Assembly (NCBI RefSeq): GCF_002161215.1
Contig: NZ_NFMB01000004.1
Location: 186,001 to 250,000, forward strand
Length of the DNA: 64,000 bases
Direction of reading: 5' to 3'
Source of the DNA: Flavonifractor sp. An10
GTDB lineage: Bacteria > Bacillota > Clostridia > Oscillospirales > Oscillospiraceae
Shown: one piece after another, positions 30,255 through 49,961 of the stretch
How positions within the stretch are numbered: the stretch's first letter is position 1
Layout of the letters: every line of letters begins with the position of its first letter
Notes under the pieces: model-generated
Seen by the model: the letters and a program-made list of their open reading frames with translations, nothing else
Told to the model about the DNA's origin: nothing
Databases searched by the model: none
Program-made: the position numbers and the translations under genes

Positions 30255-30671
30255 CTATTTCACCGCCAGATAATAATATGTATACCCCTCGTTATTGGTC
30301 TGCTCGCCGGTACTGCCCCGAACCACCCGGAAACCTCCGGAGGTCATGAAGAGGCATGGCTGGCCGTCTTGTGGGGCCAGGGGGCCGCCGGCTACCGCCA
30401 TACCCGCCCGGGCCTGGGTAACGCCGCCCCGGGCGCCCCAGGAGGTCTCCACCAGCACGCCCCGTGGCTGAAAACCCAGGTTAATCAGGCGATTTTGTGT
30501 GCCGTCCCCGGTGTAAGTGCCGGTAACGATTTCCGCCTTGCCCTGGGCGGTTGACAGAGCCGCCTTGATCCCCGCGTCGATCTTCTGAAAATCGGTATTG
30601 AAGTCGGTGCGGAGAAAGTTGTCGCCGGGCACCCACTGGTGGAGCCCATAATTTGCCGTATAGGTTGCCAT
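30255..30671 (-). CDS. Small tail-fibre-like protein, copy 1 (LHQW family)
   Basis: 138 aa, no signal peptide or membrane segment. The N-terminus MATYTANYGLHQWVPGDNFL then RTDFNTDFQKIDAGI resembles the first domain of phage tail fibre proteins (xxYTxNYxLxxxxxxDxxxxxDFNxNFxxID). The middle is Gly/Thr-rich (GTYTGDGTQNRLINLGFQPR) and the end GYTYYYLAVK resembles the closing strands of fibre tip domains. Three more copies lie at 30785, 40553 and 49590, each convergent with a giant SLH gene. Nothing else phage-like is near. Its ATG (30671) is preceded by GGGAGGG 7 nt away, sealed in a hairpin. Function unknown; binding or display of a surface ligand is a guess. Confidence 0.8.
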   Translation of the reverse strand: MATYTANYGLHQWVPGDNFLRTDFNTDFQKIDAGIKAALSTAQGKAEIVTGTYTGDGTQNRLINLGFQPRGVLVETSWGARGGVTQARAGMAVAGGPLAPQDGQPCLFMTSGGFRVVRGSTGEQTNNEGYTYYYLAVK

Positions 30672-30678
30672 GGTTCAT

Positions 30679-30700
30679 CCCTCCCGGCGGCGCGGGAGGG
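30679..30700 (-). promoter_or_regulatory. Ribosome-site hairpin of small gene 1
   Basis: On the minus strand CCCTCCCG (anti-SD) pairs with CGGGAGGG, which holds the Shine-Dalgarno, with a 6-nt loop, directly before the start codon. Translation should be low unless the hairpin is opened. Confidence 0.65.
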
Positions 30701-30784
30701 CGGCCCGGCGCGGTACGGGGAGCCGCGGCCGCGTCCTGCCGTCCCGCGCCGCCCTGCGGGCGCCGGCACCCGGGAGGGATTTTT

Positions 30785-31180
30785 ATGGCAAGTTATACAA
30801 CCAATTATCAGCTGCACCAGTGGGAGGCCAGCGACGACTTCCTGCGCACGGATTTCAACGAGGACTTTGCCAAAATCGACGCGGGCATCAAATCGGCGGC
30901 GGACGCCGCCGCAGGCGCGGCCAGCACCGCCGCCGGAAAGGCCCGGATCGTGACGGGCTCCTACACCGGCAACGGCTCTTCCAAGACGGTGAGCCTCGGG
31001 TTCCGCCCCAAGGCTCTCTGGGTGCATGGGGGTGTGTACGACACAATGGTCACCCAGCAGGGCGGACACAATATGCTGGGTCTAAACACCACCGGCTTCA
31101 TCGTGCAGTTTGTCAGTGGCTATGGGGACTACTGCGCAAACAAAAACGGCCAAAGTTATACCTATGCCGCTATCCAATAG
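30785..31180 (+). CDS. Small tail-fibre-like protein, copy 2 (LHQW family)
   Basis: 131 aa from the ATG at 30785, with GGGAGGG 6 nt upstream. N-terminus MASYTTNYQLHQWEASDDFL then RTDFNEDFAKIDAGIKSAAD, a short Ala-rich helix, then a beta-rich part (IVTGSYTGNGSSKTVSLGFR) and a closing GYGDYCANKNGQSYTYAAIQ. The same family as 30255-30671, which lies back to back with it (113 bp between starts). It converges on giant SLH gene 2. The local hairpin around its ribosome site is weaker than in the other three copies, although the same GGGAGGG is used and an anti-SD CCCTCCC lies 90 bp upstream. Function unknown. Confidence 0.78.
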   Translation: MASYTTNYQLHQWEASDDFLRTDFNEDFAKIDAGIKSAADAAAGAASTAAGKARIVTGSYTGNGSSKTVSLGFRPKALWVHGGVYDTMVTQQGGHNMLGLNTTGFIVQFVSGYGDYCANKNGQSYTYAAIQ

Positions 31181-31186
31181 GTAAAA

Positions 31187-31219
31187 AGATCCCCCCGGGC
31201 AAATTGCCCGGGGGGATCT
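31187..31219 (-). terminator. Terminator between small gene 2 and giant SLH gene 2
   Basis: AGATCCCCCCGGGCAA/TTGCCCGGGGGGATCT. On the minus strand it ends in TTTTT, so it mainly stops the SLH transcript. Confidence 0.8.
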
Positions 31220-31249
31220 GACCTTTAGGAGAATTCAGAATTCTCTAAA

Positions 31250-34200
31250 TTAGTCGTGAATATCTCCAGCTGTGACGTTACCAGAAACCGTAAAGCTATA
31301 GATCCCGGTCTCACCGGTAACGGGGGTCAGGGTGATGGTGCTGCTAGTGGGAGTGCCCGTCGCGGTTACAAACAGCTCAGTGCCCACAGCAACAGAATTG
31401 CTATAGGTGAGCTCAGGGCTACCAGTCTTCGCGTCGCTCAGCGAGGCAAAGATCTTAACATCGCTGTCAGTCTGGTCGGCCACGGTATAGGCATCCCAAA
31501 TAAAGATCTCACCGTCATCGCCGTTGGCACCCATATCGAGTGTATACACAGCCTCTCTGCCGTTGGCGTTGATAACCGTACCAGCCACAGGAGTGCCAAT
31601 GTTGGTATCGATCAAGAAGCTGGTAGAAGTGGTGTCAAAGTACACCAGATCGTTATCCTTCCAGAAGCCCAGGCTGTCACCATTGTAGAACACCTCGGCA
31701 ACCTGGAGCTCGCCAATGGTGACGGGCTTGGTCACGGTGTACTCAGTGGTGTTCTTGGTGCCGCTCAGACGGTACGGGTCGGTAAACGCGACGCCGTCCT
31801 CGGTGAACTGCACGTACTTGCCGGAACCAGCCTTGTCGCCGGTAACCTCGAGTACCACACCGTCGGCCACATAAGTGGTGGAGCTGGGAGTATAGGTCGC
31901 ATCATAGGTGCCGTTGCCATCGCTGTCGTACTTGAAGGTCACGCCGCCCGCGGCCTTAACCTGATAGCCGTCAGTGAGGGCAACATCCATGATGATGCCA
32001 GGCCAGGAATAGGTGAACTCGCTATTTCCGGTCGTGTAAGACACGCCGCTATCCTTGACGTCGACCTTGCCCTCAATGATAACCGCCACGTCTCCAGTGG
32101 TGTCTTTCTTCAGAGCTTCAGAAGCATCGAAGGTAGCAGTGTAACCAGCATTACGATCCATCCAATAATACTCTCCGCCATAAGAGACGTAGTGAACCTG
32201 GATAGACTCGACCTCGTACATGCCCCAATCACTCCAAGAGTCGCCGCCGGTGGTCACATTCCAGCCGCCAGCGGTACCGATGGCGGCGTCCCAGGTAACA
32301 CTGACGATGTTCTCGCCCAGGAAGTCGGCCATCAGGTCGCGCACGTCGTTGATGGTGGGGCGGGAGCTGTTGACATCATGCCAACGCAGCTCATAGGCGC
32401 CGGTGAGGCTGTCGCGGGTGACGTTGTCGGTGTAGCGGGCACCCTGGACGGGAGTCTCGGTGGTGTCGTCGATCTCCCACACGAAGGCGGTGCGGATGGT
32501 GCGGCCGTTCACGGTGGTGGGAACGATGACGGAGTGGCACTCGATGTAGGAGAACTCACCCTCACGGATGTCGTCCTTGGCGGTGGTCATGTCGGTGACA
32601 TCCCACACGTCGGCGTCGTCGGGCAGCGCGTAGATCTCGTTCTTGGTATTCTCCACGGTGCCGTTGAGCAGCAGCTCGGCGTTGTAGTCCTCGATGCGGG
32701 TACCGTCAACGATGTCGTAGGTGCCGTCGGCGTTCTCCACATAGGCATAGGCGTTCATGTAGCAGGTGGTGTCCTCGGGATTGAAGGTGCTCTTGCTGTA
32801 CTCGTCGATTTCAATCTCCTTGGCGGTGCCATCCTCAAAGACCACGTTCAGCCACAGGGTGTCGTCCTTGGTGTAGGCGTTGCGGGACAGAACCAGCATG
32901 TAGTCGCGGCTGGTAACCACGGTCTCGGCGTTGATCAGAACGACCTCGGCCAGGTGGGTGGTCTCCCAGGTCTTGTCGGCGGTCTTCTTCTCCACGGGGT
33001 AGACCTGCACGTCCACGTTCAGATCCTTGTTGTCCTTGTTATAGGCGTCCACGTCGCCCATGTTGTTCCAGCCGATGGCGGCGCTGTAGGAGATGGTTCC
33101 GTCAGCGTTGCGGACGAAGTAGAAGGCCACGGTGTTGCGGTCAATGGCGTACTCCACGTCGTCGTTGCCGACCTTGCTGGTCAGGAAGATGGAGGCGTCG
33201 CCCTTGTCGTAGTCCTCGTCCAGAGTCCACTCCAGGTTGCTGTCGGTCTGAGCGGCAGTCACAGGGGCCTTATCGTTCTTGTCGATATAGGCATAGGTGT
33301 CGTCCTTGCCGTCGCCGAAGTTGCGGTCGGTGTTGGTCTTGGGAGCGGTCACGAGGCCGTCCACAATGCGATCCTCATGCAGGCCCAGAACCTTGTTGAT
33401 GGTCAGCTCGGTCTCGTCCTCGTTCAGGGAGTAGAGGATCACGGTGCCCACGGCGGCGTTCAGGTTGCTCTGAGCGGAACCGCCGGAGGTGTTCACGTCG
33501 CGGGTGCCCAGGTAGGCTTCCAGCTTGTCGCTGTCGTCACCAAAGGCGGGATCCACGGAAGCATCCCAGTCGATGTCGTACTTGGCGGTGGTGCCGTCGG
33601 CCTTCAGGATCTTGATCTCGCCCTCCTTGGTCAGGGCGTTCTGGGTCCAGGCGGACTCGATGACCAGGCCGTAGTTGATCTCGGGCTCCTCAGTGGGCCG
33701 GATGGCGACCACGTAGCCGTTGGAGTCCAGGATGAAGTCGAACATGTCGTCGAAGCCGGGCTCCGTCTCACGGGTCTCGGGCTCGTCGATGTCGAAGTGG
33801 GTCAGCTCCACGTCCACCTTGGAGGCGGCGTCGGGGATGAAGGACTGGCGGTACTCCTTACCATTGTCCAGGGTGATGTACAGCTCATTATCCTCGTCGC
33901 GGTCCAGACGGGTCATGGTGCCGGAGACGATCTCGGGCAGGGTGATGTAGGTGCGGCCGCCGTACTGGACGTACAGCACCAGGTCGTCGGTGGCGATGGT
34001 GTCGCCGTTGGGGTACACGGCGTCCTCGAAGTCCACGGCGAAGGAGTCAGCGGTGTTGTCCAGCTCGCCCTTGGGGTCGCGGCCGGGGGCGTACAGGGTG
34101 AACTCCTCGTTGCGCTCGCTGTAGGAGCGAACCTCGGACAGAGTCTCCATGGTGTACAGGACGTACTCGGCCTTGCCGTCGTCGTTGTTGTCGATGACCT

Positions 34201-35374
34201 CGACCTCAATGCCGTTGGCCACGAAGTAATCCTCGGTCTGATCCAGGTCATAGTTGGCGTGCTCATTGATGGTCTCAATGGCGGCGGCCTCGTTGGCCTG
34301 GTAGCCGTAGTTGACATAGTACTCGGTGTCCTCGTCCACGGTCACGCCGGTGCCCTTCAGGTAGTCCTTAGAGGTGTCCTCGGTGGAGGCGGTGGTCAGG
34401 ATCACGTTCATGTCGTCCTTGGTGGCCACGCCGATGACCTTGGAGTTGGACAGCACGGTGGTCTTCTCCACGTACAGGGTCACGGCCTTGCCCATGTAGT
34501 CCACGGGGGTGGTCACATTGAAGGGCACCACGCCGTCATAGCGCACGCCCTCGTCCACCACGGTGTTGGCGGTGGTGGAGTCGTACACGATCACGTTCTC
34601 CAGGGTGGTGCGGCCCTCGCGCAGGGCGGCCTCGGAGTCGGTCTGCTCCAGCTGAGCCCACTCGTTGCCCACAACCACGCCCTCGACGCGCATCACGCCG
34701 AACACGGAGCTCAGAATGGTGCGGTGGTCGTCATAGGAAATGGCGTAGCCGTTGCGGTACTCCTGGATCAGCTCCACGTCCAGGGCGTTGTAGATCAGCA
34801 GAGCCGCGTCGTCACGGTTCAGAGGCTCGCTCACGTCCTTGGTGAAGTTGCGGAAGATGCCCAGCTGCTGGGCCAGGGCGGCGGTGTTCAGCGCCCAGTC
34901 GGGGCCGACCAGGCCCTCGATGTCGGCGTTGTAGCCCAGGGCGGCCAGCAGCATCTTGGCGGCCTCAACGCCGGTCACGTTGGCGCTGGGGTCGAAGGTG
35001 TTGTCGCCGCGGCCGGCAATGATGCCGCGCACATAGCAGTAGTTGATGAAGCCGCGGGCCCAGTTGGCTGCGATGTCGGTCAGGCCGCTGTCCACATTGG
35101 TGTACAGGGTATCGCAGTTCTGGTTGTTGGTCAGAGTGACGGAGATCATCTTCGCCATCTGAGCGCGGTCCACGTTGCCAGTGGGATCATAGGAGCCATC
35201 GGGCAGGCCCTGGATAATCTCCAGCGTGGTCAGCATGGAAACCGCATCCTTGTTCACGATCTCTTCCCGGTCGGAGAAATCGTTGTAGCTCACAGCGCCA
35301 GCGCCGACGACCATCAGGCCAATGACCATAACGACGGCCAGCACCAGGCTGAGAGCCCGTTTGAGGTTTCTCAT
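31250..35374 (-). CDS. Giant SLH-domain S-layer-type protein 2
   Basis: 1374 aa. The ATG at 35374 follows AGAAGGAGG. The signal peptide (MRNLKRALSLVLAVVMVIGL) ends near GAGAVS. SLH repeats lie at about 30-78 (FSDREEIVNKDAVSMLTTLE), 93-148 (LTDIAANWARGFINYCYVRG) and 153-200 (DWALNTAALAQQLGIFRNFT). The long acidic passenger shares blocks with the others (YVNYGYQANEAAA, ILYVQYGGRTYI-like, DYMLVLSRNAYTKDDTLWLN). From about residue 1000 the sequence is its own, beta-rich (GEYYWMDRNAGYTATFDASE) and ends SFTVSGNVTAGDIHD. It carries copy B of the upstream module. It is convergent with the small tail-fibre-like gene at 30785. Expected to be wall-anchored and abundant. Confidence 0.92.
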   Translation of the reverse strand: MRNLKRALSLVLAVVMVIGLMVVGAGAVSYNDFSDREEIVNKDAVSMLTTLEIIQGLPDGSYDPTGNVDRAQMAKMISVTLTNNQNCDTLYTNVDSGLTDIAANWARGFINYCYVRGIIAGRGDNTFDPSANVTGVEAAKMLLAALGYNADIEGLVGPDWALNTAALAQQLGIFRNFTKDVSEPLNRDDAALLIYNALDVELIQEYRNGYAISYDDHRTILSSVFGVMRVEGVVVGNEWAQLEQTDSEAALREGRTTLENVIVYDSTTANTVVDEGVRYDGVVPFNVTTPVDYMGKAVTLYVEKTTVLSNSKVIGVATKDDMNVILTTASTEDTSKDYLKGTGVTVDEDTEYYVNYGYQANEAAAIETINEHANYDLDQTEDYFVANGIEVEVIDNNDDGKAEYVLYTMETLSEVRSYSERNEEFTLYAPGRDPKGELDNTADSFAVDFEDAVYPNGDTIATDDLVLYVQYGGRTYITLPEIVSGTMTRLDRDEDNELYITLDNGKEYRQSFIPDAASKVDVELTHFDIDEPETRETEPGFDDMFDFILDSNGYVVAIRPTEEPEINYGLVIESAWTQNALTKEGEIKILKADGTTAKYDIDWDASVDPAFGDDSDKLEAYLGTRDVNTSGGSAQSNLNAAVGTVILYSLNEDETELTINKVLGLHEDRIVDGLVTAPKTNTDRNFGDGKDDTYAYIDKNDKAPVTAAQTDSNLEWTLDEDYDKGDASIFLTSKVGNDDVEYAIDRNTVAFYFVRNADGTISYSAAIGWNNMGDVDAYNKDNKDLNVDVQVYPVEKKTADKTWETTHLAEVVLINAETVVTSRDYMLVLSRNAYTKDDTLWLNVVFEDGTAKEIEIDEYSKSTFNPEDTTCYMNAYAYVENADGTYDIVDGTRIEDYNAELLLNGTVENTKNEIYALPDDADVWDVTDMTTAKDDIREGEFSYIECHSVIVPTTVNGRTIRTAFVWEIDDTTETPVQGARYTDNVTRDSLTGAYELRWHDVNSSRPTINDVRDLMADFLGENIVSVTWDAAIGTAGGWNVTTGGDSWSDWGMYEVESIQVHYVSYGGEYYWMDRNAGYTATFDASEALKKDTTGDVAVIIEGKVDVKDSGVSYTTGNSEFTYSWPGIIMDVALTDGYQVKAAGGVTFKYDSDGNGTYDATYTPSSTTYVADGVVLEVTGDKAGSGKYVQFTEDGVAFTDPYRLSGTKNTTEYTVTKPVTIGELQVAEVFYNGDSLGFWKDNDLVYFDTTSTSFLIDTNIGTPVAGTVINANGREAVYTLDMGANGDDGEIFIWDAYTVADQTDSDVKIFASLSDAKTGSPELTYSNSVAVGTELFVTATGTPTSSTITLTPVTGETGIYSFTVSGNVTAGDIHD

Positions 35375-35900: not shown

Positions 35901-37193
35901 TTGACAAAATATGTGATTCACGGCGGAAAGCCGCTTTTTGGAGAGATCGATATCAGCGGCGCCAAAAATGCCGCTGTTGCCATCATACCGGCCGCCCTTC
36001 TGGTGGACGGTGTTTGCCGCATTGAAAATATTCCCCAGATCAGCGATGTGACACTGATCTTAAATATTCTTCAGGAGCTGGGGGCCGATGTCCGCACCGT
36101 CAACCGCACCACGGTGGACATTGACTGCTCCCATATCCGCAATTCCCGGGTGCCTGACGAGCTGGCGCGGAAAATCCGCGCCTCCTACTATCTCATTGGC
36201 GCTCTGCTGGGGCGGTTCGGCTCGGCGGAGGTGCCGCCGCCGGGCGGCTGCGACTTCGGCGGCCGCCCCATCGACCAGCACATCAAGGGCTTTGTGGCCA
36301 TGGGGGCCGACGTGGACGTACGGGGCGGCTTCATCCATGCCAAGGCCAAGTCCGGGCGGATGCTGGGCACCCAGATCTATCTGGATATCGTATCCGTGGG
36401 GGCCACCATGAACATCATGCTGGCCGCCGTGCTGGCCGACGGCATGACGGTCATTGAGAACGCCGCCAAGGAGCCCCATGTGGTGGATCTGGCCAACTTC
36501 CTCAACTCCATGGGCGCCGACATCATGGGCGCCGGCACCGACGTGATCAAAATCCGCGGGGTGGAGCGCCTGAGCGGCGGCGTCTACTCCATCATTCCCG
36601 ACCAGATCGAGGCGGGCACCTACATGGCGGCGGTGGCCGCCGCCGGCGGCGAGGTGCTGATTAAAAACGTGATCCCCAAGCACCTGGAGTGCATCACGGC
36701 CAAGCTGCTGGAGATGGGAGTGGACGTGGACGAGCGGGACGACGCGGTGCTGGTGCGCCGCACCGGCAGGCTCACCCGCACCAACGTGAAGACCCTGCCC
36801 TATCCCGGCTTCCCCACGGACATGCAGCCCCAGATCGCCGCGGTGCTCTGCCTGGCGGAGGGCACCAGTGTACTCACCGAGGGCGTGTGGGACAACCGCT
36901 ACCGCTATGTGGACGAGTTCCGCCGCATGGGGGCCCAGATCCAGGTGGACGGCAAGATCGCCGTCATCGAGGGGGTGGAGAGCCTCACCGGCGCCAAGAT
37001 CCAGGCCTGCGACCTGCGGGCCGGGGCGGCCATGGTGATCGCCGGCCTGGCGGCCCAGGGCACCACGGAGATCAGCTGCATCCACCACATCGAGCGGGGT
37101 TATGAGGACATTGTGCGCAAGCTCTCCGGCGTGGGGGCGGACATCCGCGTGGTGGTGACCCCCGACGAGGGCAAGCAGATGCAGGTGGGATAA
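35901..37193 (+). CDS. murA: UDP-N-acetylglucosamine 1-carboxyvinyltransferase
   Basis: 430 aa cytoplasmic enzyme for the first committed step of peptidoglycan synthesis: transfer of enolpyruvate from PEP to UDP-GlcNAc. Seen: K22-N23 in ISGAKNAA, R92 in ARKIRASYYL, the catalytic loop PPPGGCDFGGRPID with C117 (the fosfomycin target), and IIPDQIEAGTYM. The length is normal (about 420-430). The start is TTG at 35901, preceded by AGAGGG. It has its own promoter and terminator and lies next to S-layer genes, a plain housekeeping neighbour. Low-GC Firmicutes often carry two MurA copies; which type this is was not resolved. Confidence 0.96.
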   Translation: MTKYVIHGGKPLFGEIDISGAKNAAVAIIPAALLVDGVCRIENIPQISDVTLILNILQELGADVRTVNRTTVDIDCSHIRNSRVPDELARKIRASYYLIGALLGRFGSAEVPPPGGCDFGGRPIDQHIKGFVAMGADVDVRGGFIHAKAKSGRMLGTQIYLDIVSVGATMNIMLAAVLADGMTVIENAAKEPHVVDLANFLNSMGADIMGAGTDVIKIRGVERLSGGVYSIIPDQIEAGTYMAAVAAAGGEVLIKNVIPKHLECITAKLLEMGVDVDERDDAVLVRRTGRLTRTNVKTLPYPGFPTDMQPQIAAVLCLAEGTSVLTEGVWDNRYRYVDEFRRMGAQIQVDGKIAVIEGVESLTGAKIQACDLRAGAAMVIAGLAAQGTTEISCIHHIERGYEDIVRKLSGVGADIRVVVTPDEGKQMQVG

Positions 37194-37252
37194 CCCTTCA
37201 AAAAAGTTTCAAAAAGTTCAGCGGCCTGTCGAAAAGCCTTTTTGACAGGCTG

Positions 37253-37277
37253 GGGGGGGCGCAGGCCCCCCTTTTTT
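37253..37277 (+). terminator. Terminator of murA
   Basis: GGGGGG...GCCCCCC stem followed by TTTTTT (37272-37277). A second stem, GGCCTGTC/GACAGGCT, lies just before it. Confidence 0.85.
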
Positions 37278-37311
37278 ATGCGATCATCTTACATAGCAAG
37301 GAGCGACTTCT

Positions 37312-38100
37312 GTGCTGGAACTTTGTACCCTGGCCAGCGGCTCCAGCGGCAACAGCCTGCTGGTGAGCGACGGCCGCACCCATATCCTGGTGGACGCAGG
37401 CATCTCCTGCCGCCGCATCACCAACAGCCTCAAGGCCCTGGGCGTGGATCCCAGGGAGCTGGCGGGGGTGCTGATCACCCACGAGCACACCGACCATATG
37501 GCCGGCCTGGCCACCCTGACCAAGCAGCTGCGGCTCCCTGTGTATGCCAGCCGGGGGACGGGGCGGCAGCTGTGCTACCGCATCGCCTTTCTGGAGGAGC
37601 TGTTCCACCCGGTGACCCCTGGGGAGGGCTTCTCGGTGGGCGGCATCGACGTGGAGAGCTTTTCCACCCCCCACGACGCGGCGGAGAGCACGGGCTTTGC
37701 CCTGTCCGCCGGGGGGCGGAAGGCCGCCGTGGTCACCGACCTGGGCTATGTGACGCCGGAGGTGCTGAAGGGCATCCGGGGGGCGGATCTGCTGGTGTGC
37801 GAGGCCAACCACGACGTGGAGTGGCTCCAGTCCGGGCCCTATCCCTACTATCTGAAGGCACGGATCCTGGGCGACCGGGGGCACCTGTCCAACGAGGCGG
37901 GGGCCGAGCTGGCCTGGACAGCGGTGGAGGGCGGCGCCCGCACGGTGGTACTGGCCCACCTGTCCCACGAGAACAACACCCCCCAGCGGGCCCACGAGGT
38001 GGTGCGCGCCCTGCTGGAGCGGCGGGGCGCGGCGGTGGGGCGGGATGTGATCCTGGAGGTGGCCCCCCGCAGCGAGGCAGGCAGGAGGTATCCGGTATGA
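37312..38100 (+). CDS. MBL-fold metallohydrolase of the YycJ/WalJ type
   Basis: 262 aa. Starts with GTG at 37312, 8 nt after AAGGAG. The metal motif THEHTDH (56-62) and further ligands (FSTPHDAAEST, VTDLGYVT, EANHD, LSHEN) give the metallo-beta-lactamase fold. The N-terminus LCTLASGSSGNSLLVSDG is characteristic of YycJ/WalJ, a probable 5'-3' exonuclease linked in Bacillus and Streptococcus to the WalRK wall regulon and DNA repair. In those species it sits near rlmH, as here, where the two genes overlap by 4 bp (ATGA). Confidence 0.9.
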   Translation: MLELCTLASGSSGNSLLVSDGRTHILVDAGISCRRITNSLKALGVDPRELAGVLITHEHTDHMAGLATLTKQLRLPVYASRGTGRQLCYRIAFLEELFHPVTPGEGFSVGGIDVESFSTPHDAAESTGFALSAGGRKAAVVTDLGYVTPEVLKGIRGADLLVCEANHDVEWLQSGPYPYYLKARILGDRGHLSNEAGAELAWTAVEGGARTVVLAHLSHENNTPQRAHEVVRALLERRGAAVGRDVILEVAPRSEAGRRYPV

Positions 38101-38585
38101 AGGGCATCCATGTGCAGCTCCTCTGCGTGGGCAAGATGAAGGAGAAGTTCTACATCGACGCGGCGGCGGAGTACGTCAAGCGGCTGGGCGCCTACTGCAG
38201 GCTCCAGGTGGTGGAGCTGCCCGAGGAGCGGCTGCCCGCCAATCCCTCCCGGGCCCAGATCGACGCCGCACTGGAGAAGGAGGGGGCCGCCATCCGGGCC
38301 AGGCTGGCCCCTGGTGCGGCCCTGGTGGCCCTGTGTGTGGAGGGGGAGGAGAAGTCCAGCGAGGCGCTCTCCCGCCTGCTGGCGGGCTGGAGCGCCGCGG
38401 GCACTGGCTCCCTGGCCTTTGTGATCGGCGGCTCCTACGGCCTCCATCCGAACATCAAGGCCCTGGCCCGGCTGCGCCTGTCCATGTCTCCCATGACCTT
38501 CCCCCACCACCTGGCCCGGGTCATGCTGCTGGAGCAGCTCTATCGGGCTTTCAAGATTGACGAGGGCTCCAGCTACCACAAGTGA
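38097..38585 (+). CDS. rlmH: 23S rRNA (pseudouridine-1915-N3) methyltransferase
   Basis: 162 aa SPOUT-class methyltransferase that modifies helix 69 of 23S rRNA using SAM. Seen: the SAM-binding knot AFVIGGSYGLHP (107-118) and the C-terminal family motif SMSPMTFPHHLARVMLLEQL then YRAFKI...YHK. The length is normal (about 159). The start overlaps the upstream hydrolase by ATGA, so the two are co-translated. The same gene pair is common in Firmicutes. Confidence 0.96.
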   Translation: MKGIHVQLLCVGKMKEKFYIDAAAEYVKRLGAYCRLQVVELPEERLPANPSRAQIDAALEKEGAAIRARLAPGAALVALCVEGEEKSSEALSRLLAGWSAAGTGSLAFVIGGSYGLHPNIKALARLRLSMSPMTFPHHLARVMLLEQLYRAFKIDEGSSYHK

Positions 38586-38641
38586 GACCCGGAATTTTCC
38601 ATGATTCGTCAAAAGACAGGGTAGCTATTGCCGGTTATTTG

Positions 38642-38650
38642 TGATATAAT
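38642..38650 (+). promoter_or_regulatory. Extended -10 promoter of the phosphoglucomutase gene
   Basis: TGATATAAT (TGn plus a perfect -10), 62 bp before the start. The -35 region is weak. Confidence 0.6.
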
Positions 38651-38711
38651 CACAACAGCTGGAAAGCGTTCACGCCCGAATTTTGACAGATTGGTATTGG
38701 AGGTAAGTCCC

Positions 38712-40439
38712 ATGTCCTATCGTGATGTGTATGAAAAATGGCTCAACAGCCCCGCCCTCAGCGAGGCGGAGAAGGAGGAGCTACGGGGCATCGCCGGCGA
38801 CGAGAAGGAGATCGAGAGCCGGTTCTTCGCCCCTCTGGAGTTCGGCACCGCCGGCCTGCGGGGCACCATGTGCGTCGGCCTGCACCAGATGAACGTCCAC
38901 GTGATCCGCCACGCCACCCAGGCCTTTGCCGAGGTGATCCTGGCCGAGGGCGAGGCGGCCGCCAAGCGGGGCGTGGCCGTGTGCTACGACTGCCGCAACC
39001 ACTCCCAGGAGTTCGCCCGGGAGACCGCCTGTGTCATGGCGGGCAACGGCATTCCGGTGCGCATCTTTGAGTCCCTCCGCCCCACGCCGGAGCTGTCCTT
39101 CGCCGTGCGGGAGTACGGCTGCATCGCCGGCGTGAACGTCACCGCCAGCCACAACCCCAAGGAGTACAACGGCTACAAGGTCTACTGGCAGGACGGGGCC
39201 CAGCTGCCCCCCCACCACGCCTCCGCCATCGCCAAGAAGATGGAGGAGCTGGATCTGTTCGACTCCATCAAGCGGATGGACTATGACGAGGCGGTTTCCA
39301 AGGGCCTGATCACCGTCATGGGCGAAGAGACCGACGAGAAGTTCCTGTCCAACGTCATGGGCCAGGTCAACGACAAGGCGGCGGTGGACAAGGTGGCCGA
39401 CACCTTCAAGATGGTGTACACCCCCTTCCACGGCACCGGCTACAAGCTGATTCCCGAGGCCCTCAAGCGCCTGGGCATGAAGCACGTCATCTGCGTGCCC
39501 GAGCAGATGGTCATCGACGGCAACTTCCCCACCGTGGTCTCCCCCAACCCGGAGAACCCGGAGGGCTTCGCCCTGGCGGTGGAGCTGGCGAAAAAGGAGG
39601 GGGCCGACTTCATTCTGGGCTCTGACCCCGACGCCGACCGGGTGGGCATCATGGTCAAGACCGGCGACGGGGAGTTCAAGGTGCTCACCGGCAACCAGAC
39701 CGGCGTGCTGCTGCTGGACTACCTGATCGGCGCCAAACGCCGCACCGGCAAGATGCCGGACAAGCCGGTGGCCCTCAAGACCATCGTCACCACCGAGATG
39801 GCCCGCAAGGTGGCCGAGGACAACGGCCTGGCCTGCTATGACACCTTCACCGGCTTCAAGTTCCTGGCCGAGAAGAAGGACAAGCTGGAGAACGCCGGCG
39901 AGGGCAAGGTGATCTTCGCCTACGAGGAGAGCTACGGCTACATGCTGGGCGACTACGTCCGGGACAAGGACGCGGTCACCGCCGCCCTGGCCCTCACCGA
40001 GATGGCCGCCTGGTACGCCGGGCAGGGCATGACCCTGTACGACGCCCTGCTGGCCTGCTATGAGAAGTACGGCTATTACGGGGAAAAGACCCTGAACCTG
40101 GTGATGCCCGGCCTGGACGGTCTGAAGAAGATGGCCCAGCTGATGGCCGATCTGCGGGCCAAGCCCCCGGTGGAGATCGCCGGCGTGGGCGTGCTCCAGC
40201 AGAAGGACTATCAGGACGGAAGCGTGGTCAACGTGGCTGACGGCGCGAAGAGCACCATGGAGCTGTCCGGTTCCAACGTGCTGCGCTATGAGATGGCCGA
40301 CGGCACCAGCCTTATCGTCCGGCCCTCCGGCACCGAGCCCAAGGTCAAGGTCTACATCCTGGCAAGAGGCGCCGACCGCGCCGAGTGCGACGCCAAGGTG
40401 GCCGCCTATACCGCCTGGGCCGAGACCCTGAAGAAGTAA
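38712..40439 (+). CDS. pgm: Phospho-sugar mutase (phosphoglucomutase/phosphomannomutase)
   Basis: 575 aa alpha-D-phosphohexomutase, interconverting glucose-1-P and glucose-6-P (or the mannose forms), feeding glycolysis and wall sugar-nucleotides. Start at the ATG 38712 (MSYRDVYEKW) after GGAGGTAAG. The four family motifs are present: catalytic serine loop VTASHNPKEYNG (S146), Mg loop DPDADR (305-310), sugar-binding EESYGYMLGDYVRDKD, and phosphate-binding RPSGTEPKVKVY near the end. The length fits the long PgcA-type of Firmicutes. The 113 bp after its stop hold the hairpin of the next small gene and a partial REP palindrome (GACGGATATCATCCGCC). Confidence 0.95.
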   Translation: MSYRDVYEKWLNSPALSEAEKEELRGIAGDEKEIESRFFAPLEFGTAGLRGTMCVGLHQMNVHVIRHATQAFAEVILAEGEAAAKRGVAVCYDCRNHSQEFARETACVMAGNGIPVRIFESLRPTPELSFAVREYGCIAGVNVTASHNPKEYNGYKVYWQDGAQLPPHHASAIAKKMEELDLFDSIKRMDYDEAVSKGLITVMGEETDEKFLSNVMGQVNDKAAVDKVADTFKMVYTPFHGTGYKLIPEALKRLGMKHVICVPEQMVIDGNFPTVVSPNPENPEGFALAVELAKKEGADFILGSDPDADRVGIMVKTGDGEFKVLTGNQTGVLLLDYLIGAKRRTGKMPDKPVALKTIVTTEMARKVAEDNGLACYDTFTGFKFLAEKKDKLENAGEGKVIFAYEESYGYMLGDYVRDKDAVTAALALTEMAAWYAGQGMTLYDALLACYEKYGYYGEKTLNLVMPGLDGLKKMAQLMADLRAKPPVEIAGVGVLQQKDYQDGSVVNVADGAKSTMELSGSNVLRYEMADGTSLIVRPSGTEPKVKVYILARGADRAECDAKVAAYTAWAETLKK

Positions 40440-40552: not shown

Positions 40553-40975
40553 ATGGCAAGCTATACAACCAATTATCAGCTGCACCAGTGGGAGGCCAGC
40601 GACAGCTTCCTGCGCACCGACTTCAACACCGATTTCCAGAAAATCGACGCCGCCGTCAAGGGGGTGGAGACGGCGGCCAACACGGCGCTGGCCCTGAAGG
40701 CGGACAAGACGGAGCTGACCCAGGCGTGCGGGGCGCTGGATGAGGCCAAGTGCGAGACCCTCACCGGTAGCTACACGGGCAACGGGGCCAACACCAGAAC
40801 CATCGACCTGGGGTGTGCGCCCAGGGCGGTCTTTGTGGGGGAGTTCCTCGCTGTGCCGGGTATGACAAGCAACTATCTGCTCAGTCTTACGGCCAGCGGC
40901 TTCCAGGTGCGGGACAGCCTGGGCACCAGCACCAACAGCTCCGGCGAAACCTACTATTATCTGGCACTGGTATAA
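40553..40975 (+). CDS. Small tail-fibre-like protein, copy 3 (LHQW family)
   Basis: 140 aa from the ATG at 40553. N-terminus MASYTTNYQLHQWEASDSFL then RTDFNTDFQKIDAAVK, a predicted trimer-like heptad helix (GVETAANTALALKADKTELT), then GSYTGNGANTRTIDLG and a closing SSGETYYYLALV. The helix between the N-terminal and C-terminal parts is longer than in copies 1 and 4, as in fibres that trimerise. It may be read through from the phosphoglucomutase gene or have its own promoter; none is clear. Converges on giant SLH gene 3 with a shared terminator. No signal peptide. Function unknown. Confidence 0.78.
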   Translation: MASYTTNYQLHQWEASDSFLRTDFNTDFQKIDAAVKGVETAANTALALKADKTELTQACGALDEAKCETLTGSYTGNGANTRTIDLGCAPRAVFVGEFLAVPGMTSNYLLSLTASGFQVRDSLGTSTNSSGETYYYLALV

Positions 40976-40977
40976 AA

Positions 40978-41008
40978 GGAGCCCCCGGGCCATCGGCCCG
41001 GGGGCTCC
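40978..41008. terminator. Shared terminator of small gene 3 and giant SLH gene 3
   Basis: GGAGCCCCCGGGCC/GGCCCGGGGGCTCC with a 3-nt loop; convergent genes on both sides. Confidence 0.8.
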
Positions 41009-41029: not shown

Positions 41030-44000
41030 TTACTCGGCGGTAGCGATGAGGTTGATAACCATCTCAACGCCGTCCACATAGAGAACGATCTCGCCGTTCT
41101 CAGGGAATGTCCAGCCACCAATCTGTCCAAAGATGGCGCTGACCAGAGTGTTCTGGGAACCGGAATCACCGTTGTAGGCGTTGTCGGAAGCGTCATACCA
41201 GGCGCTGCCCTTCACAGGCTTATCGCTGGCGTTCTTGGCATCGTCATCCCACACATAGGTCACGCCGTCAAACTTAATCTGAGAGGCGTGGCCCTGGTGA
41301 TACAGAGCGCCCAGGAAGCGGGACACATCGTTGGTGATGAAGCTGTGATCCGCATCGCTATACTCCTTGCTACCAAAGTCAGCGGTCAGGGTATTGCCGT
41401 TCACAGTCCAGGTAGCCGCAGTATCACTGTACCCAACGATCTTATTATCAGAGCCAACAGCAGAGCTGGCAACATCATTGACGAACTCGTAATACCACTT
41501 CTCGGTGTTAATGCCGCCGTTGGTCTTGGTGACGCGGGCGGTCACGCTCTGCTCGTCGGCGTCGAAGCGGGTGATCTCCACATCGACAGACTCCCCGTTG
41601 ACGTTCTTGTTGTAGTAGCCGAGCAGCTCGTCGGTGATCAGGGTGCGCAGGTCGGAGGTGCTGGGCTCCTCACCGGTGTACTCGATGGTGATCAGGCGGC
41701 GGCCGCTGGCGTTGTCGTCCACGACCACATCCACCAGCTCGGTGTCAGTGTCGAAGTCCACATCGGGGGTGGTGGGAGTCTCACGATCCCAGATCCACGC
41801 GGTGCGGATGGAGCCGCTGTCGTTGAAGATCACGACGGCGTTCACGTCAGTGCGGGTAGAGAAGGCGGAAGCGGTGGCCTCATCGCCGGCGTTCTCCACA
41901 TCGTTGACGTCCCAGACCTGCGCGGCGCCCAGAATGGCGGCGTAAATCTGCCTGCTGTTCACCTCATCGGTGAAAGCAATGGTGCCGTTCTCCAGACGGT
42001 GGGCAACGCCTCTGCCGGTGCTGGCATCGTCGCCGTCAATGCTGACATCGGTGTCCACGCCGCGATACATGCTGCCCACGTCATAGGTGCCGTCGGCGTT
42101 CTCGCTGTAGCTCCAGGCACGGCCATAGGAATTGTTGTTGTCGACCTCGAAGTCGCCCAGGTTGTCTTCCTCTACCTCGATGGCGGCAACAGTACCGTCC
42201 TCAAAGACCACAGTCAGGGTCCAGATGTCGCCGCGGCGGTTGGCGTTGGCGTCCAGAACCAGCATGTAGTCGGAGGAATCAGTCTCGTTAGCGGCCTCGA
42301 AGAGGATCAGACCGGCCAGATCAGAGGCCTGATAGGTGCGGTTAGTGGTGCGCTCCAGCACAGGGTAGACCTGCGCGTCGGTGCCGGCGGCCACGTCGCT
42401 CATGTCGTCCCAGCCGGTAGCCACGCCGTACCGCACATCGCCCTCGTCGTCAATCCAGTAATAGAAGGCCACGGTGTTCAGATCCACGGCGTAGTTGCGG
42501 CTGACGTCGGAGAGATCGTCGGAGATGCCGCTGCCGCCATCAGGATCGTTGACAGCGCCGTTGTTCACGCCGTGAACGGTAATGGTGCCGTTGCCGTTCT
42601 CGTAGCCGCTGGCGGCAGTCTCAGCGACATTGCCCACATTATACTGCAGGTTGTCGTCGTCGGGATCAGCGCCCAGGTACAGGATCACGCCGTTGTCGCC
42701 CACACCGGCGGTGGTACGGGTCGTGTTCGCGTTGTGGATCTGCAGAGGAGTGCTGGCCTCATCGGAATCGGCGGTGAAGCTGTTGCCCTGCATGACGCTC
42801 TCGATGGTCAGCACGTCGTCGTCGTCCAGCGTGTAGGTGATGACGGAGCCCTCGGCGGAGTTCACACCATACTGGCCGGTGACATTATGCACGTCGCGGC
42901 TGCCCAGATAGAGCTCCAGCTTGGTGTCGTTGGGCAGATCTTCGATATCCTGCGCAGGACTGCCAGCGGGGGTGTAAGTATCATCGCCATTGATGGAGCT
43001 TACGCGGGCAAAAGCCTTGGCGGACTCATCCCAATCGATGTAGTAGGTGCCCTCAGTGCCGTCGGCCATGAGGATCTTCACCTGACCATCGCGATCCAGG
43101 GCGTTCTGGGTCCAGGCGGACTCCAGCACCAGGGCGTAGTTGGTCACAGTCTCCTCGGCGGGACGGGTGGCGATCACGTACTGCTCGCTGGCATCCAGAA
43201 TGAAGTCGTAGGTGGTGTCAAAGCCCAGCTCAGTACGGGCCTCATCAATATTGAAGTGGGTCAGCTCCACATCGGCCATAGAGGCGGCGTCGGGCAGATA
43301 GGCCTGGCGGTACTCCTGCTCGTTGTCCAGGGTGATGTACTGCTCGTTGTTCCGGTCACGGTCCACGCGGTACATAGCCTCGGTAACGATGGGGGCCAGC
43401 TGGATGTAGGTGCGGCCGCCGTACTCCACGTACAGGATCAGGTCGTCGGTGGCGACCTCGTCGTTGAACACCACGTCCTCAAAGTCGCGGGTCAGGGTGT
43501 CCACGTCCTGGCTGGGCGTGCCGTCGTTCTCCAGCTCGGGGATATAGAAGGAGACAGTCTCGTTGCGCTCGCTGTAGCGGGTGACCTCGGACAGGGTGTC
43601 CTGAACATACAGCACGTACTCGGCGGTGCCGTCGTCATTGTTGTCAATGACCTCCACATCCACGCCGTTCACGTTGTAGTAGGTGTTGGTCTCCCCCAGA
43701 TCCTCATTAGCGTACTTGTTGATGAGGGTAACGGCCTCAGTGGCGCCGTCCTCGCACCAGCCGTAGTTGACATAGTACTGGGTGTTCTTGTCGGTCTCAA
43801 TGCCGGTGCCGTCCAGCAGGTCGTCCAGGTTCTCCTCGGTGGCGGTGGTGGCATGGATCACATTGGCCTCGTCGTTGGTGGCCACACCGATGACGTTGGA
43901 GTTGGCCAGAATGGTGGTCTTCTCCACGTACATGGTGACAGCCTTGCCCATGTACTCCACGGGAGTGGAGACATTGAAGGTGACAGGCTTGTCTTCCTTC

Positions 44001-44830
44001 ACGCCCTCGGGCACGGTGGTGTTGGAGGTGGTGGAGTCGTACACCACGACCTCGTCCAGGGTGGTCTTGCCGGTGCGCAGAGCGGCGTCGGAGTCGGTCT
44101 CCTCCAGGCGGGCCCACTCGTTGGCGGTGACAACGCCCTCCACGCGAACCACACCGAACACGGAGCTCAGGATGGTGCGGTGGTCGGAGTACACCAGGGC
44201 GTAGCCGTTGGAGTACTGCTGGATCATCTCCACGTCCAGGGCGTTGTAGATGAGCAGAGCGGCGTCGTCACGGTTCAGGGGCTCGCTCACGTCCTTGGTG
44301 AAGTTGCGGAAGATGCCCAGCTGCTGCGCCAGGGCGGCGGTGTTCAGCGCCCAGTCGGGGCCCACCAGGCCCTCGATCTCAGCGTTGTAGCCCAGGGCGG
44401 CCAGCAGCATCTTGGCGGCCTCAACGCCGGTCACGTTGGCGCCGGGGTCGAAGGTGTTGTTGCCGCGGCCGGCAATGATGCCGCGCACATAGCAGTAGTT
44501 GATGTAGCCGCGGGCCCAGTTGGCGGAAATGTCGGTGAGGCCGCTGTTGACATTCTGATACAGAGTGTCGCAGTCCTCGTTGTTGGTCAGGGCGACAGAA
44601 ATCATCTTCGCCATCTGCGCGCGGTCCACGTTACCAGCGGGGTTATAAGAGCCGTCGGGCTGGCCCTCAATAATGCCCAGCGTGGTGAGCATGGAAACCG
44701 CATCCTTGTTCACGATCTCTTCCCGGTCGGAGAAATCGTTGTAGCTCACAGCGCCGGCGCCGACGACCATCAGGCCAATGACCATAACGACGGCCAGCAC
44801 CAGGCTGAGAGCCCGTTTGAGGTTTCTCAT
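41030..44830 (-). CDS. Giant SLH-domain S-layer-type protein 3
   Basis: 1266 aa. The start is set at the ATG 44830 (MRNLKRALSL) after AGAAGGAGG. The same frame is open for a further 102 codons upstream, but that stretch covers the shared regulatory module and has no ribosome site. Signal peptide, then SLH repeats at about 30-78 (FSDREEIVNKDAVSMLTTLG), 93-148 (LTDISANWARGYINYCYVRG) and 153-200 (DWALNTAALAQQLGIFRNFT), nearly the same as in paralogue 2. The acidic passenger has common blocks (YVNYGWCEDGATEA, LILYVEYGGRTYIQLAPIVT, DYMLVLDANANRRGDIWTLT). The last about 250 residues differ from the others and end YVDGVEMVINLIATAE. Copy C of the module lies upstream. Confidence 0.92.
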   Translation of the reverse strand: MRNLKRALSLVLAVVMVIGLMVVGAGAVSYNDFSDREEIVNKDAVSMLTTLGIIEGQPDGSYNPAGNVDRAQMAKMISVALTNNEDCDTLYQNVNSGLTDISANWARGYINYCYVRGIIAGRGNNTFDPGANVTGVEAAKMLLAALGYNAEIEGLVGPDWALNTAALAQQLGIFRNFTKDVSEPLNRDDAALLIYNALDVEMIQQYSNGYALVYSDHRTILSSVFGVVRVEGVVTANEWARLEETDSDAALRTGKTTLDEVVVYDSTTSNTTVPEGVKEDKPVTFNVSTPVEYMGKAVTMYVEKTTILANSNVIGVATNDEANVIHATTATEENLDDLLDGTGIETDKNTQYYVNYGWCEDGATEAVTLINKYANEDLGETNTYYNVNGVDVEVIDNNDDGTAEYVLYVQDTLSEVTRYSERNETVSFYIPELENDGTPSQDVDTLTRDFEDVVFNDEVATDDLILYVEYGGRTYIQLAPIVTEAMYRVDRDRNNEQYITLDNEQEYRQAYLPDAASMADVELTHFNIDEARTELGFDTTYDFILDASEQYVIATRPAEETVTNYALVLESAWTQNALDRDGQVKILMADGTEGTYYIDWDESAKAFARVSSINGDDTYTPAGSPAQDIEDLPNDTKLELYLGSRDVHNVTGQYGVNSAEGSVITYTLDDDDVLTIESVMQGNSFTADSDEASTPLQIHNANTTRTTAGVGDNGVILYLGADPDDDNLQYNVGNVAETAASGYENGNGTITVHGVNNGAVNDPDGGSGISDDLSDVSRNYAVDLNTVAFYYWIDDEGDVRYGVATGWDDMSDVAAGTDAQVYPVLERTTNRTYQASDLAGLILFEAANETDSSDYMLVLDANANRRGDIWTLTVVFEDGTVAAIEVEEDNLGDFEVDNNNSYGRAWSYSENADGTYDVGSMYRGVDTDVSIDGDDASTGRGVAHRLENGTIAFTDEVNSRQIYAAILGAAQVWDVNDVENAGDEATASAFSTRTDVNAVVIFNDSGSIRTAWIWDRETPTTPDVDFDTDTELVDVVVDDNASGRRLITIEYTGEEPSTSDLRTLITDELLGYYNKNVNGESVDVEITRFDADEQSVTARVTKTNGGINTEKWYYEFVNDVASSAVGSDNKIVGYSDTAATWTVNGNTLTADFGSKEYSDADHSFITNDVSRFLGALYHQGHASQIKFDGVTYVWDDDAKNASDKPVKGSAWYDASDNAYNGDSGSQNTLVSAIFGQIGGWTFPENGEIVLYVDGVEMVINLIATAE

Positions 44831-45105: not shown

Positions 45106-45200
45106 TGACCTCAAAACACATGGTAAGAAGCGGCATGCTGCCCCGGGAAATCCCGACGGTTGTATATTGTGTGGCCGCCGGCTTTCAGCAGAAGCTCCTG

Positions 45201-46223: not shown

Positions 46224-46257
46224 AGGAACACGAACTTAAGAAAGGAGCAGCCCAATC

Positions 46258-47049: not shown

Positions 47050-47055
47050 CCGCAC

Positions 47056-47087
47056 AGCCCCGGAAAAGTCCTTGCTTTTCCGGGGCT
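47056..47087 (+). terminator. Terminator of the TIGR04255 gene
   Basis: AGCCCCGGAAAAG/CTTTTCCGGGGCT with a 6-nt loop. A -10-like TATAAAAT (47093-47100) follows at once and may start the pncA transcript. Confidence 0.75.
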
Positions 47088-47134
47088 CTTGGTATAAAAT
47101 AGTCAGGTGTCTTGACAGCTTGGAGGCGGTACGG

Positions 47135-47665: not shown

Positions 47666-47679
47666 AGGTTGTGAAACAG

Positions 47680-49128: not shown

Positions 49129-49185
49129 CAGAAAGCCCATCCCCGTTACCACCGCCCCATGGAGGCACCGGCCTCCCGGCGGCGC

Positions 49186-49270
49186 GCCTGCGCGGCGGGC
49201 GCCCCGCTTTTGATGGCAAAAGCGGGGGGAAAACCAGCAGGGGAAGGGATTTCGATTTCCCTTCCCCTGC
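49186..49270. repeat. Dispersed GC-rich repeat unit, copy 2, and adjoining hairpins
   Basis: The 20-mer GCCTGCGCGGCGGGCGCCCC (49186-49205) is shared with 25480-25499. Next is a hairpin CCCCGCTTTT/AAAAGCGGGG, and then a stem GCAGGGGAAGGGA/TCCCTTCCCCTGC (49237-49270). No gene is seen from 49129 to 49589. Confidence 0.6.
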
Positions 49271-49288
49271 ACCCTATCCTTAAAACGA

Positions 49289-49318
49289 CCAAAAAGGGGG
49301 CTCCGGCCCCCTTTTTGG
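49289..49318 (+). terminator. Intrinsic terminator downstream of pncB
   Basis: CCAAAAAGGGGG/CCCCCTTTTTGG followed by ATTTTCCC. Confidence 0.7.
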
Positions 49319-49421
49319 ATTTTCCCCCAAGCTGTCCTACAGGTAGCTTACCAACCGAGGGGGCTTACTTTGTAACGCCCCCTCGGTTCGCGGCACGCGG
49401 CGGCCCCGGCGCACTCTGTAG

Positions 49422-49520
49422 GGGCGGATAGTATCCGCCCGAATCCGTAGGGGCGACCTGTGGTCGCCCGCCCCATGGAGGCACCGGCATCACCGCTCTG
49501 TGGCGCGCGACGACTCGGCG
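49422..49520. repeat. REP-like palindrome cluster, second location
   Basis: GGGCGGAT-AGT-ATCCGCCC (49422-49440) and GGGCGACC-TGT-GGTCGCCC (49451-49469), then a GCGCGACGACTCGGCGCGC unit (about 49504-49522). They are the same units as at 25286-25380 in a different order, 30-80 bp upstream of a small tail-fibre-like gene. Confidence 0.65.
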
Positions 49521-49553
49521 CGCGTGTCACCCCCGTGTTCCGTCATACCTCAA

Positions 49554-49587
49554 ACATCCCTCCCGGCTGTCACGCCGGGAGGGATGT
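49554..49587 (+). promoter_or_regulatory. Ribosome-site hairpin of small gene 4
   Basis: Perfect 14-bp stem ACATCCCTCCCGGC/GCCGGGAGGGATGT with a 6-nt loop. The Shine-Dalgarno GGGAGGG lies in the right arm, 7 nt before the ATG at 49590; an in-frame ATG at 49584 is inside the stem. Confidence 0.78.
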
Positions 49588-49589
49588 TT

Positions 49590-49961
49590 ATGGCAACGTA
49601 TACAGAAAATTACCAGCTGCACCAGTGGGTGCCCGAGGACGATTTCCTCAGAACCGACTTCAACACGGACTTCCAGAAGATCGACACCGCGCTGGCGGGA
49701 CTCCAGACCGCGCTGGACGGGAAGTGCCGCATCCGGGAGGGAAGCTACAACGGCAACGGGAGCACATCCCTGCGGACGGTGGCCACGTCGGGCACCCCCA
49801 AAGTGCTCCTGCTGTCCACGGGGAGCAGCGTCTTTGCCGTCCTGGACAACGGCAAGACCGTCAACCGGGTCACCGTCATCAACAACGGCTTCCGCATCGA
49901 GGCCGGTTCCGGCGACCCCAACCAGAGCGGGAAGACCTACCACTTCGCGGCCTTCCTGTAA
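49590..49961 (+). CDS. Small tail-fibre-like protein, copy 4 (LHQW family)
   Basis: 123 aa. N-terminus MATYTENYQLHQWVPEDDFL then RTDFNTDFQKIDTALAGLQT, then GSYNGNGSTSLRTVATSG and a closing SGDPNQSGKTYHFAAFL. Shortest of the four copies. Like the others it has no signal peptide, sits tail-to-tail with a giant SLH gene (4) and shares its terminator zone. The Shine-Dalgarno is fully paired in a 14-bp hairpin. The N-terminal part is almost unchanged across the four copies, while the C-terminal part varies, as expected for a conserved mount and a variable tip. Function unknown. Confidence 0.78.
   Translation: MATYTENYQLHQWVPEDDFLRTDFNTDFQKIDTALAGLQTALDGKCRIREGSYNGNGSTSLRTVATSGTPKVLLLSTGSSVFAVLDNGKTVNRVTVINNGFRIEAGSGDPNQSGKTYHFAAFL

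Follow-up and report, generated by a model that had tools for sequence, protein, structure and literature searches.

Comparative analysis of a 64,000-nucleotide stretch of the Flavonifractor sp. An10 genome (contig NZ_NFMB01000004.1, positions 186,001 to 250,000, catalogued as G000:C10:186001-250000 and hereafter called the window; host genome, 3.88 Mb) identified a two-gene module in which a small gene, whose product ends in a tip resembling phage tail fibers, lies tail-to-tail with a giant gene for an SLH surface protein. Genome comparison reveals the pairing itself, a layout of conserved outer arms around a variable inner core, arms that group by genome, cores that have been replaced, joint replacement of both variable ends, and one core inverted between genomes. 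On these sequence data, the exchange of cores appears well supported as an evolutionary process. On balance, each pair is probably an exchangeable, recombining surface-variation cassette in which the SLH protein is accompanied by a fiber-like partner.

Small fiber-like genes and their SLH partners

The first-pass annotation of the window had described four small open reading frames (ORFs) placed tail-to-tail with SLH genes. All four are present, with products of 131, 138, 140, and 123 aa, and the N-termini are indeed nearly constant and the C-termini variable. The spacing was confirmed as well, with gaps of 52, 69, 54, and 57 bp to the SLH stop codons and a G+C-rich hairpin in each gap. The N-terminal 40 residues (LHQW..D.FLRTDFN.D..KID) form a conserved "mount", followed by a variable C-terminus with scattered motifs. 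The start of SLH gene 3 is probably at 44830 and not at 45136, because the sequence MRNLKRALS sits 102 codons inside the longer ORF. The features of the window are as follows.

26048..30202, + strand: SLH surface protein gene 1, 1384 aa; conserved 5′ arm with signal peptide and SLH repeats, variable 3′ end
30224..30252, no strand: terminator-like hairpin, bidirectional, between SLH gene 1 and its small gene
30255..30671, − strand: small fiber-like gene, 138 aa, convergent with SLH gene 1
30679..30700, − strand: leader hairpin, no stabler than shuffles (z −0.9); overlaps the ribosome-binding site of the 30671 gene
30785..31180, + strand: small fiber-like gene, 131 aa, divergent from the 30255..30671 gene and convergent with SLH gene 2
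31188..31218, no strand: gap hairpin, T-run in the SLH direction
31250..35374, − strand: SLH surface protein gene 2, 1374 aa
40514..40550, + strand: leader hairpin, −27.5 kcal/mol, z −5.5; encloses the ribosome-binding site of the 40553 gene
40553..40975, + strand: small fiber-like gene, 140 aa, convergent with SLH gene 3
40978..41008, no strand: gap hairpin
41030..44830, − strand: SLH surface protein gene 3, counted from MRNLKRALS; a longer ORF begins at 45136
49552..49589, + strand: leader hairpin, −36.5 kcal/mol, z −7.3; encloses the ribosome-binding site of the 49590 gene
49590..49961, + strand: small fiber-like gene, 123 aa, convergent with SLH gene 4
49966..49993, no strand: gap hairpin
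50019..55214, − strand: SLH surface protein gene 4, 1731 aa

Searching the host genome with one small protein returned 12 full-length small genes and one short partial match (C10:291800). Using the first 240 aa of SLH gene 4 as the query, we found 12 genes at 67-100% identity, with the next paralogue at 45%; over the same 240 aa, SLH gene 4 is 99% identical to another copy at C10:453296. By position, every one of the 12 small genes is convergent with its own member of this 12-gene SLH subfamily. The four-of-four pairing, which the first-pass annotation had judged unlikely to arise by chance, is far beyond it, being 12 small genes to 12 SLH genes across the genome. The short partial match, at C10:291788-292003 (L056, 8789-9004), is a decayed small gene of 71 aa that retains its own leader hairpin and mount. 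This remnant has no convergent SLH gene within 2 kb, as a deletion would leave it.

The genomes compared were drawn from a collection holding one genome per species. Among the 60 searched for relatives, which include the host and a genus set of 20, 19 gave a small-gene match: 17 of the 20 genus-set genomes, G033, and G058. The match in G058 has the tip, no mount, and no SLH neighbor, and was dropped from later counts. We built a hidden Markov model from the four window mounts and searched it against the fetched regions of the host, the genus set, and G033. In these genomes, 56 of 65 small ORFs have an SLH N-terminal ORF convergent within 400 bp. A further six lie opposite SLH-family genes truncated at the end of a contig or region, two of them traceable into the adjacent host region and four recognized by BLASTP, for a total of 62 of 65. 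Left out of the 62 are L107, at a contig end, the remnant L056_8789, and the left gene of L115, a stop-less ORF that runs on and is likewise opposed by a large ORF.

Extending the search to the whole family, we detected homologues in 93 of 300 genomes, representing 40 of 106 genera. To cover these outside the genus, we took 40 regions from 32 of those genomes, chosen to favor multi-copy and long-ORF cases. With the prophage fiber L211 left out, this sample comprises 53 loci in 31 further genomes, five of them cut by a contig end and 48 readable. Out of the 48 readable small genes, 40 are convergent with an SLH gene (two of them at a distance of 547-553 bp), and at least one such pair is present in 21 of the 31 genomes. 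A layout variant with the small and SLH genes on the same strand was observed at L221 5764-9512 (G252). Searching nine whole genomes with the mount profile yielded 47 significant matches, of which 45 face a convergent SLH gene; the two remaining are the host remnant and one gene in G168.

The first-pass annotation had named homologues lying mostly within prophages, or far from SLH genes, as the outcome that would count against it. With 62 of 65 and 40 of 48 homologues facing an SLH-family gene, the proposal stands, and the small genes are not encoded in phage tail modules. Two matches to the small protein were found in IMG/VR, and both are modules at provirus edges: the contigs L132 and L133 begin at the small gene and run into the convergent SLH gene, L132 being identical to the host cassette in L061. 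The provirus borders were likely misplaced because of the fiber-like gene.

Intact small proteins of the genus set are approximately 117-209 aa long. The suggestion that their tips are fiber-like gained support from two sides. The P0002 tip matches the end of a prophage tail fiber in G306 (BLASTP, 32% identity over 111 aa, E 4e-11); this fiber matches PHROG tail-fiber families, and its neighbors look like tail genes. A model of P0001 compared to viral models using Foldseek retrieved named tail-fiber proteins (E 1e-4 to 4e-4, template modeling (TM) score ~0.5 to the query). DUF7483 was matched by 4 of 21 small proteins at E ≤ 0.01, and P0004 scored 25.5 bits against this family, for which the cut-off is 27. 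The AlphaFold2 model of the 30785..31180 product shows a helix followed by beta strands, with a predicted local distance difference test (pLDDT) score of 85. A fold search of the PDB gave nothing better than E 0.12, with the AP22 gp53 fiber at a probability of 0.75, and a sequence search of solved structures gave only chance-level matches. No confident phage match to the mount was found, and no signal peptide was seen by eye in the small proteins. An origin of the whole small protein from a plasmid or phage was also considered and rejected, with no plasmid match and two weak phage matches (E 0.4-0.5).

A different tip of ~290 aa, which we call type 2, follows the same mount in G105, G284, G190, and G324. 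Three of these proteins had no match in Pfam or PHROG, and the type-2 tip model is mostly beta and of low confidence (pLDDT 67), with TM scores of at most 0.36 among the 50 fold matches listed. Of seven comparisons over the whole small gene, six gave a ratio of nonsynonymous to synonymous substitution rates (dN/dS) of 0.10-0.30 and one was saturated; by this measure, the small protein is under purifying selection.

Conserved arms, variable cores, and exchange

Neither the arm-and-core layout nor the evidence of exchange formed part of the first-pass annotation. All-against-all comparison of the 12 host cassettes showed that similarity is concentrated in two outer blocks, the small gene from about −50 to +100 and the first 1.8 kb of the SLH gene. 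On the small-gene side, an average of 10.8 of 11 partners align over +0..50 and 0.2 of 11 over +150..200, the alignment falling from 10.7 to 0.2 partners past ~+100, and the 3′ half is unique in nearly all pairs. On the SLH side, 11.0 of 11 partners align over the first 600 nt; similarity drops past ~1.8 kb and rises again in part at 2.4-2.8 kb.

Divergent small-gene pairs, which bring two cassettes head-to-head, number 14, with one SLH arm unreadable in two (L101 and L115). In all 12 clusters readable on both sides, the SLH 5′ parts are inverted repeats with a longest exact match of 30-570 bp, the 570-bp match being in the G008 cluster. In one of the 12, L095, the two small genes are separated by an extra SLH-family ORF. 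Eight clusters include both true SLH starts; measured upstream from the start codon, the inverted repeat begins at 42-49 bp in six of them, at ~27 bp in the window cluster, and at ~123 bp in L124.

The outer small-gene arm (about −50 to +100) carries the ribosome-binding site and the mount, and the outer SLH arm (about −45 to +1800) the signal peptide, the SLH repeats, and a proximal domain. The inner core consists of the variable SLH C-terminal region and the fiber-like tip, tail-to-tail. We propose that homologous recombination between the arms of dispersed copies would replace the core, and recombination between two inverted SLH arms would flip it. Either event would change the displayed surface and leave the promoter, export, and wall-anchoring parts in place. 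Convergence puts the variable 3′ halves next to each other and the conserved 5′ halves outside, so that, judging by the layout, one double crossover could swap both. Exchange would presumably proceed by ordinary homologous recombination, and may also occur within a population.

Arms group by genome. The nearest neighbor of a small-gene 5′ end is in the same genome in 43 of 60 cases (permuted mean 4.7), and that of an SLH 5′ end in 25 of 38 (permuted mean 4.2). For the 41 of 62 SLH 5′ ends that were readable, median identity is 0.85 within genomes and 0.62 between them. Small-gene 3′ ends cluster by genome less (19 of 60). Loci are recognizable across species by their flanks, and at one of them, F2, the upstream DNA is 0.86-0.93 identical among G004, G012, G018, G007, and G016. 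Over SLH positions +600..+1200 of this locus, nine of ten pairs are only 0.46-0.54 alike, and the tenth, G007/G016, is 0.89 alike. In G018, four arms are 0.92-0.95 alike among themselves versus 0.84-0.86 to their F2 orthologues. Moreover, G012 and G017 have a core in common that lies next to different flanks, F1 and F3.

The tip and the SLH end change jointly. Between genomes, nine of nine pairs with similar tips also have similar SLH ends, compared to a mean of 2.15 after re-pairing within genomes (p ≤ 0.0006), and the association holds over four pairs of thresholds (p 0.0002-0.0034). In 48 distinct comparisons over four locus sets, 3 keep both the tip and the SLH end, 45 change both, and none is mixed at the thresholds used. 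These locus sets were chosen by us, with L107, L111, and the other genera left out.

At one locus, a core appears inverted between genomes. G001 and G003 share both flanks, and the core on the right in G001 is the core on the left in G003 (0.80 versus a background of 0.73-0.76). The same core lies beside flank F1 in G008 (0.87), where the region between the small genes matches that of G001 at 0.83 (score 125) when inverted and at only 0.68 (score 19) in direct orientation. The second core is unrecognizable among G001, G003, and G008, so at least one further replacement is needed.

Several observations weigh against the cassette reading or parts of it. No small-gene match was found in the genus-set genomes G009, G011, and G013, which are 75-85% complete. 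Outside the genus, 8 of the 48 readable small genes lack a convergent SLH gene; two of these (in G252 and G115) have an SLH-type ORF close by on the same strand. The G168 gene mentioned above has its convergent SLH gene only at 826 bp. Homogenized arms are clear at the locus level in G018 only, and in G004, G012, and G016 the similarity of an arm to its F2 orthologues equals or exceeds that to the other arm of its own genome. Similar-tip pairs within the same genome have similar SLH ends in just three of nine cases, which speaks against a strict pair, and across the full set of pairs, the similarity of tips and that of SLH ends show almost no rank correlation (0.05), the association being limited to similar pairs. 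The SLH end of G284, which has a type-2 tip, best matches that of G321, which has a type-1 tip. The inversion is seen at one locus in three genomes, with one of two cores recognizable in all three, and G001 and G008 share one long flank and, on the other side, only an identical stretch of 73 bp. The window's own head-to-head arms are the weakest of the 12, at 72% alike with a longest exact match of 30 bp. In addition, 11 of the 12 host cassettes have the same orientation within their contigs, so that a crossover between them would delete or duplicate DNA and not invert it. All exchange comparisons were made between genomes that each represent a species.

Hairpins, rival explanations, and genomic surroundings

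The first-pass annotation had raised the possibility that the small genes control the SLH mRNA through antisense overlap, a suggestion that the gap hairpins weaken. Leaving out two gaps longer than 160 bp, a T-run follows the hairpin in the SLH direction in 45 of 60 gaps, 19 of which have one in both directions, so that transcription of the SLH gene is expected to end short of the small gene. In the small-gene direction, a T-run is present in only 25 of 60 gaps, and transcripts of the small gene could thus run on into the 3′ end of the SLH gene; together with the tail-to-tail spacing of ~70 bp, this would suit regulation by antisense overlap at the 3′ end or by convergent transcription. Among 12 leaders that were folded (11 from the host, one from G019), 9 have a strong hairpin (z −5 to −7) over the ribosome-binding site, which likewise suggests regulated translation in the host species. 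Read by eye, such leaders occur only in the host species and G019 and, less pronounced, in G002, and are therefore no general part of the module. In the host species, the 3′ arm of the hairpin is the ribosome-binding site itself, and in some leaders a T-run follows directly ahead of the start codon; these hairpins have the appearance of built-in off switches or terminators. Given the terminator-like sites for SLH transcripts, the purifying selection on the small protein, and an arm-and-core layout that accounts for the convergent arrangement and makes antisense regulation unnecessary, we assign regulation of the SLH mRNA a very low probability.

Within the cassette reading, the fiber-like protein may work with the SLH protein it travels with, binding to or assembling on the variable SLH region. 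A stronger form, which we entertain only tentatively, is a lock-and-key specificity cassette, in which each S-layer-type variant would have its own fiber-tip-like binder and both would be swapped in one recombination step. Such a binder could originally have been taken from a phage tail fiber, and could serve in kin recognition, in capping phage-receptor sites, or in the self-assembly of a two-part adhesin. Joint replacement, however, follows mechanically from the outer arms and is no proof of partnership. The small gene might instead act alone, for example as a soluble lectin-like protein, and travel only because the arms flank both genes. Outer arms alone predict joint replacement, and the three-of-nine count within genomes, the change of tip class over related SLH ends, and the eight outside loci without a convergent SLH gene all fit such hitchhiking. 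We nevertheless consider it unlikely, since the exact 12:12 pairing with one SLH subfamily and the pairing in 21 of 31 further genomes are hard to explain by it. An improbable alternative is a chaperone role, in which the small protein would be dedicated to assembling or exporting the variable C-terminus of the SLH protein, in the manner of tail-fiber chaperones. One small gene per SLH gene, the lack of a signal peptide visible by eye, and the joint change of both variable ends agree with a chaperone, but the tip resembles fiber ends, and the layout is convergent and not operonic.

The resemblance to fiber tips also raises the possibility that the small genes are a reserve of receptor-binding tips for an injection particle of the same cell, be it an extracellular contractile injection system (eCIS), a tailocin, or a prophage. 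The host has an eCIS-like cluster on C15 from ~39.6 kb onward (L233 and L238), with a 588-aa sheath recognized by Pfam and tube-, LysM-, and gp25-like proteins recognized by eye, and 10 of the 11 module-bearing genomes checked encode some kind of contractile sheath. The eCIS sheath, which the host has in common with nine other genus-set members and three listed genomes outside the genus, is nonetheless present in only 13 of 54 listed genomes and is absent from module-rich genomes such as G018, G014, G307, and G168, and the host has no PF04984 sheath beyond the eCIS one. The mount is absent from the fetched eCIS regions of three genomes and from four sheath regions (G307, G168, G269, and G018), and was not found at the sheath places of G016 and G112 either, these six being the genomes of the 11-genome check that the mount-profile search covered; in nine whole genomes, its best match outside the small genes had an E value of 0.23. 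By eye, the sheath regions of G307 and G269 are prophage-like. An eCIS or tailocin fiber was accordingly rejected, as neither co-occurrence nor a mount in common with the particle's own fiber was found, and we regard the broader injection-particle explanation as quite improbable. Finally, a diversity-generating retroelement could in principle write a variable C-terminus onto a conserved N-terminus. We give it practically no chance and consider it effectively refuted: tip dN/dS is well below 1 where estimable, tips are replaced as whole blocks, and the reverse transcriptase matches in the host are not beside the modules, those on C10 lying near 340-341 kb and the modules of that contig at 127-137, 212-241, 293-307, and 400-454 kb. 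Given the block replacement and dN/dS values below 1, adenine-specific template-repeat changes in the tips are also unlikely.

The surroundings of the cassettes, described in the first-pass annotation as otherwise full of housekeeping genes with no other phage gene nearby, turned out to include a mobile-type gene, a large serine recombinase at 55594-57180 (− strand), just upstream of SLH gene 4. Its best NCBIfam match is CcrB (E 5e-41, below the cut-off), and it may mark a mobile element. Between SLH genes 2 and 3, at 35901-40439, lie murA, an ORF with an RlmH-like end part, and a phosphohexomutase-like gene. This block is conserved and flanked by cassettes in several genera, and the cassette end that adjoins it (the small-gene 5′ end or the SLH 5′ end) varies by genome.

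Relation to known systems and significance

The sap locus of Campylobacter fetus comprises S-layer genes with conserved 5′ and variable 3′ parts, present in inverted copies, and recombination among them changes the displayed protein. The module described here is similar in having several S-layer-type genes with a common 5′ region and differing 3′ regions, as well as inverted copies, found in all 12 readable clusters with arms long enough for recombination; of inversion itself, one inverted core between genomes was seen, at one locus. It differs in its many copies with their own upstream DNA, in the fiber-like second gene within the exchanged core, and in SLH-domain anchoring. Moreover, sap switches, whereas the present module is known from sequence comparison between genomes. 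In Lactobacillus acidophilus, exchange between two inverted S-layer genes, slpA and slpB, changes the expressed protein; unlike our module, this is a single locus without a fiber-like companion gene. In its tip, the small protein is like the gp53-like/DUF7483 phage tail-fiber tips, from which it differs in its length of ~117-209 aa and in that the module lies outside phages and no confident phage counterpart of the mount was found. S-layer protein switching in C. fetus is mentioned in one report (PMC5634654).

An S-layer protein and a tail-fiber-type binder also meet in Clostridioides difficile, where, according to two reports, SlpA and a prophage receptor-binding protein form such a binding pair (PMC9615553; PMC10100898) and SlpA is a phage receptor (PMC10100898). 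The C. difficile binder belongs to a prophage, whereas the two genes of the present module make up a single chromosomal cassette, and their products are putative binding partners. Literature searches on SLH genes with tail fibers, the Flavonifractor S-layer, and Oscillospiraceae S-layer phase variation returned no description of the module among the matches listed, as judged from titles and the beginnings of abstracts in a corpus that leaves most subscription journals outside.

If the exchanged unit is an SLH protein together with a matched fiber-like protein, the module would be a surface-variation system that keeps a recognition pair together in gut bacteria. This would account for the presence, in many genera, of a tail-fiber-like gene tail-to-tail with SLH genes. 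The module thereby offers a testable set of candidate binding pairs, 12 of them in one genome.

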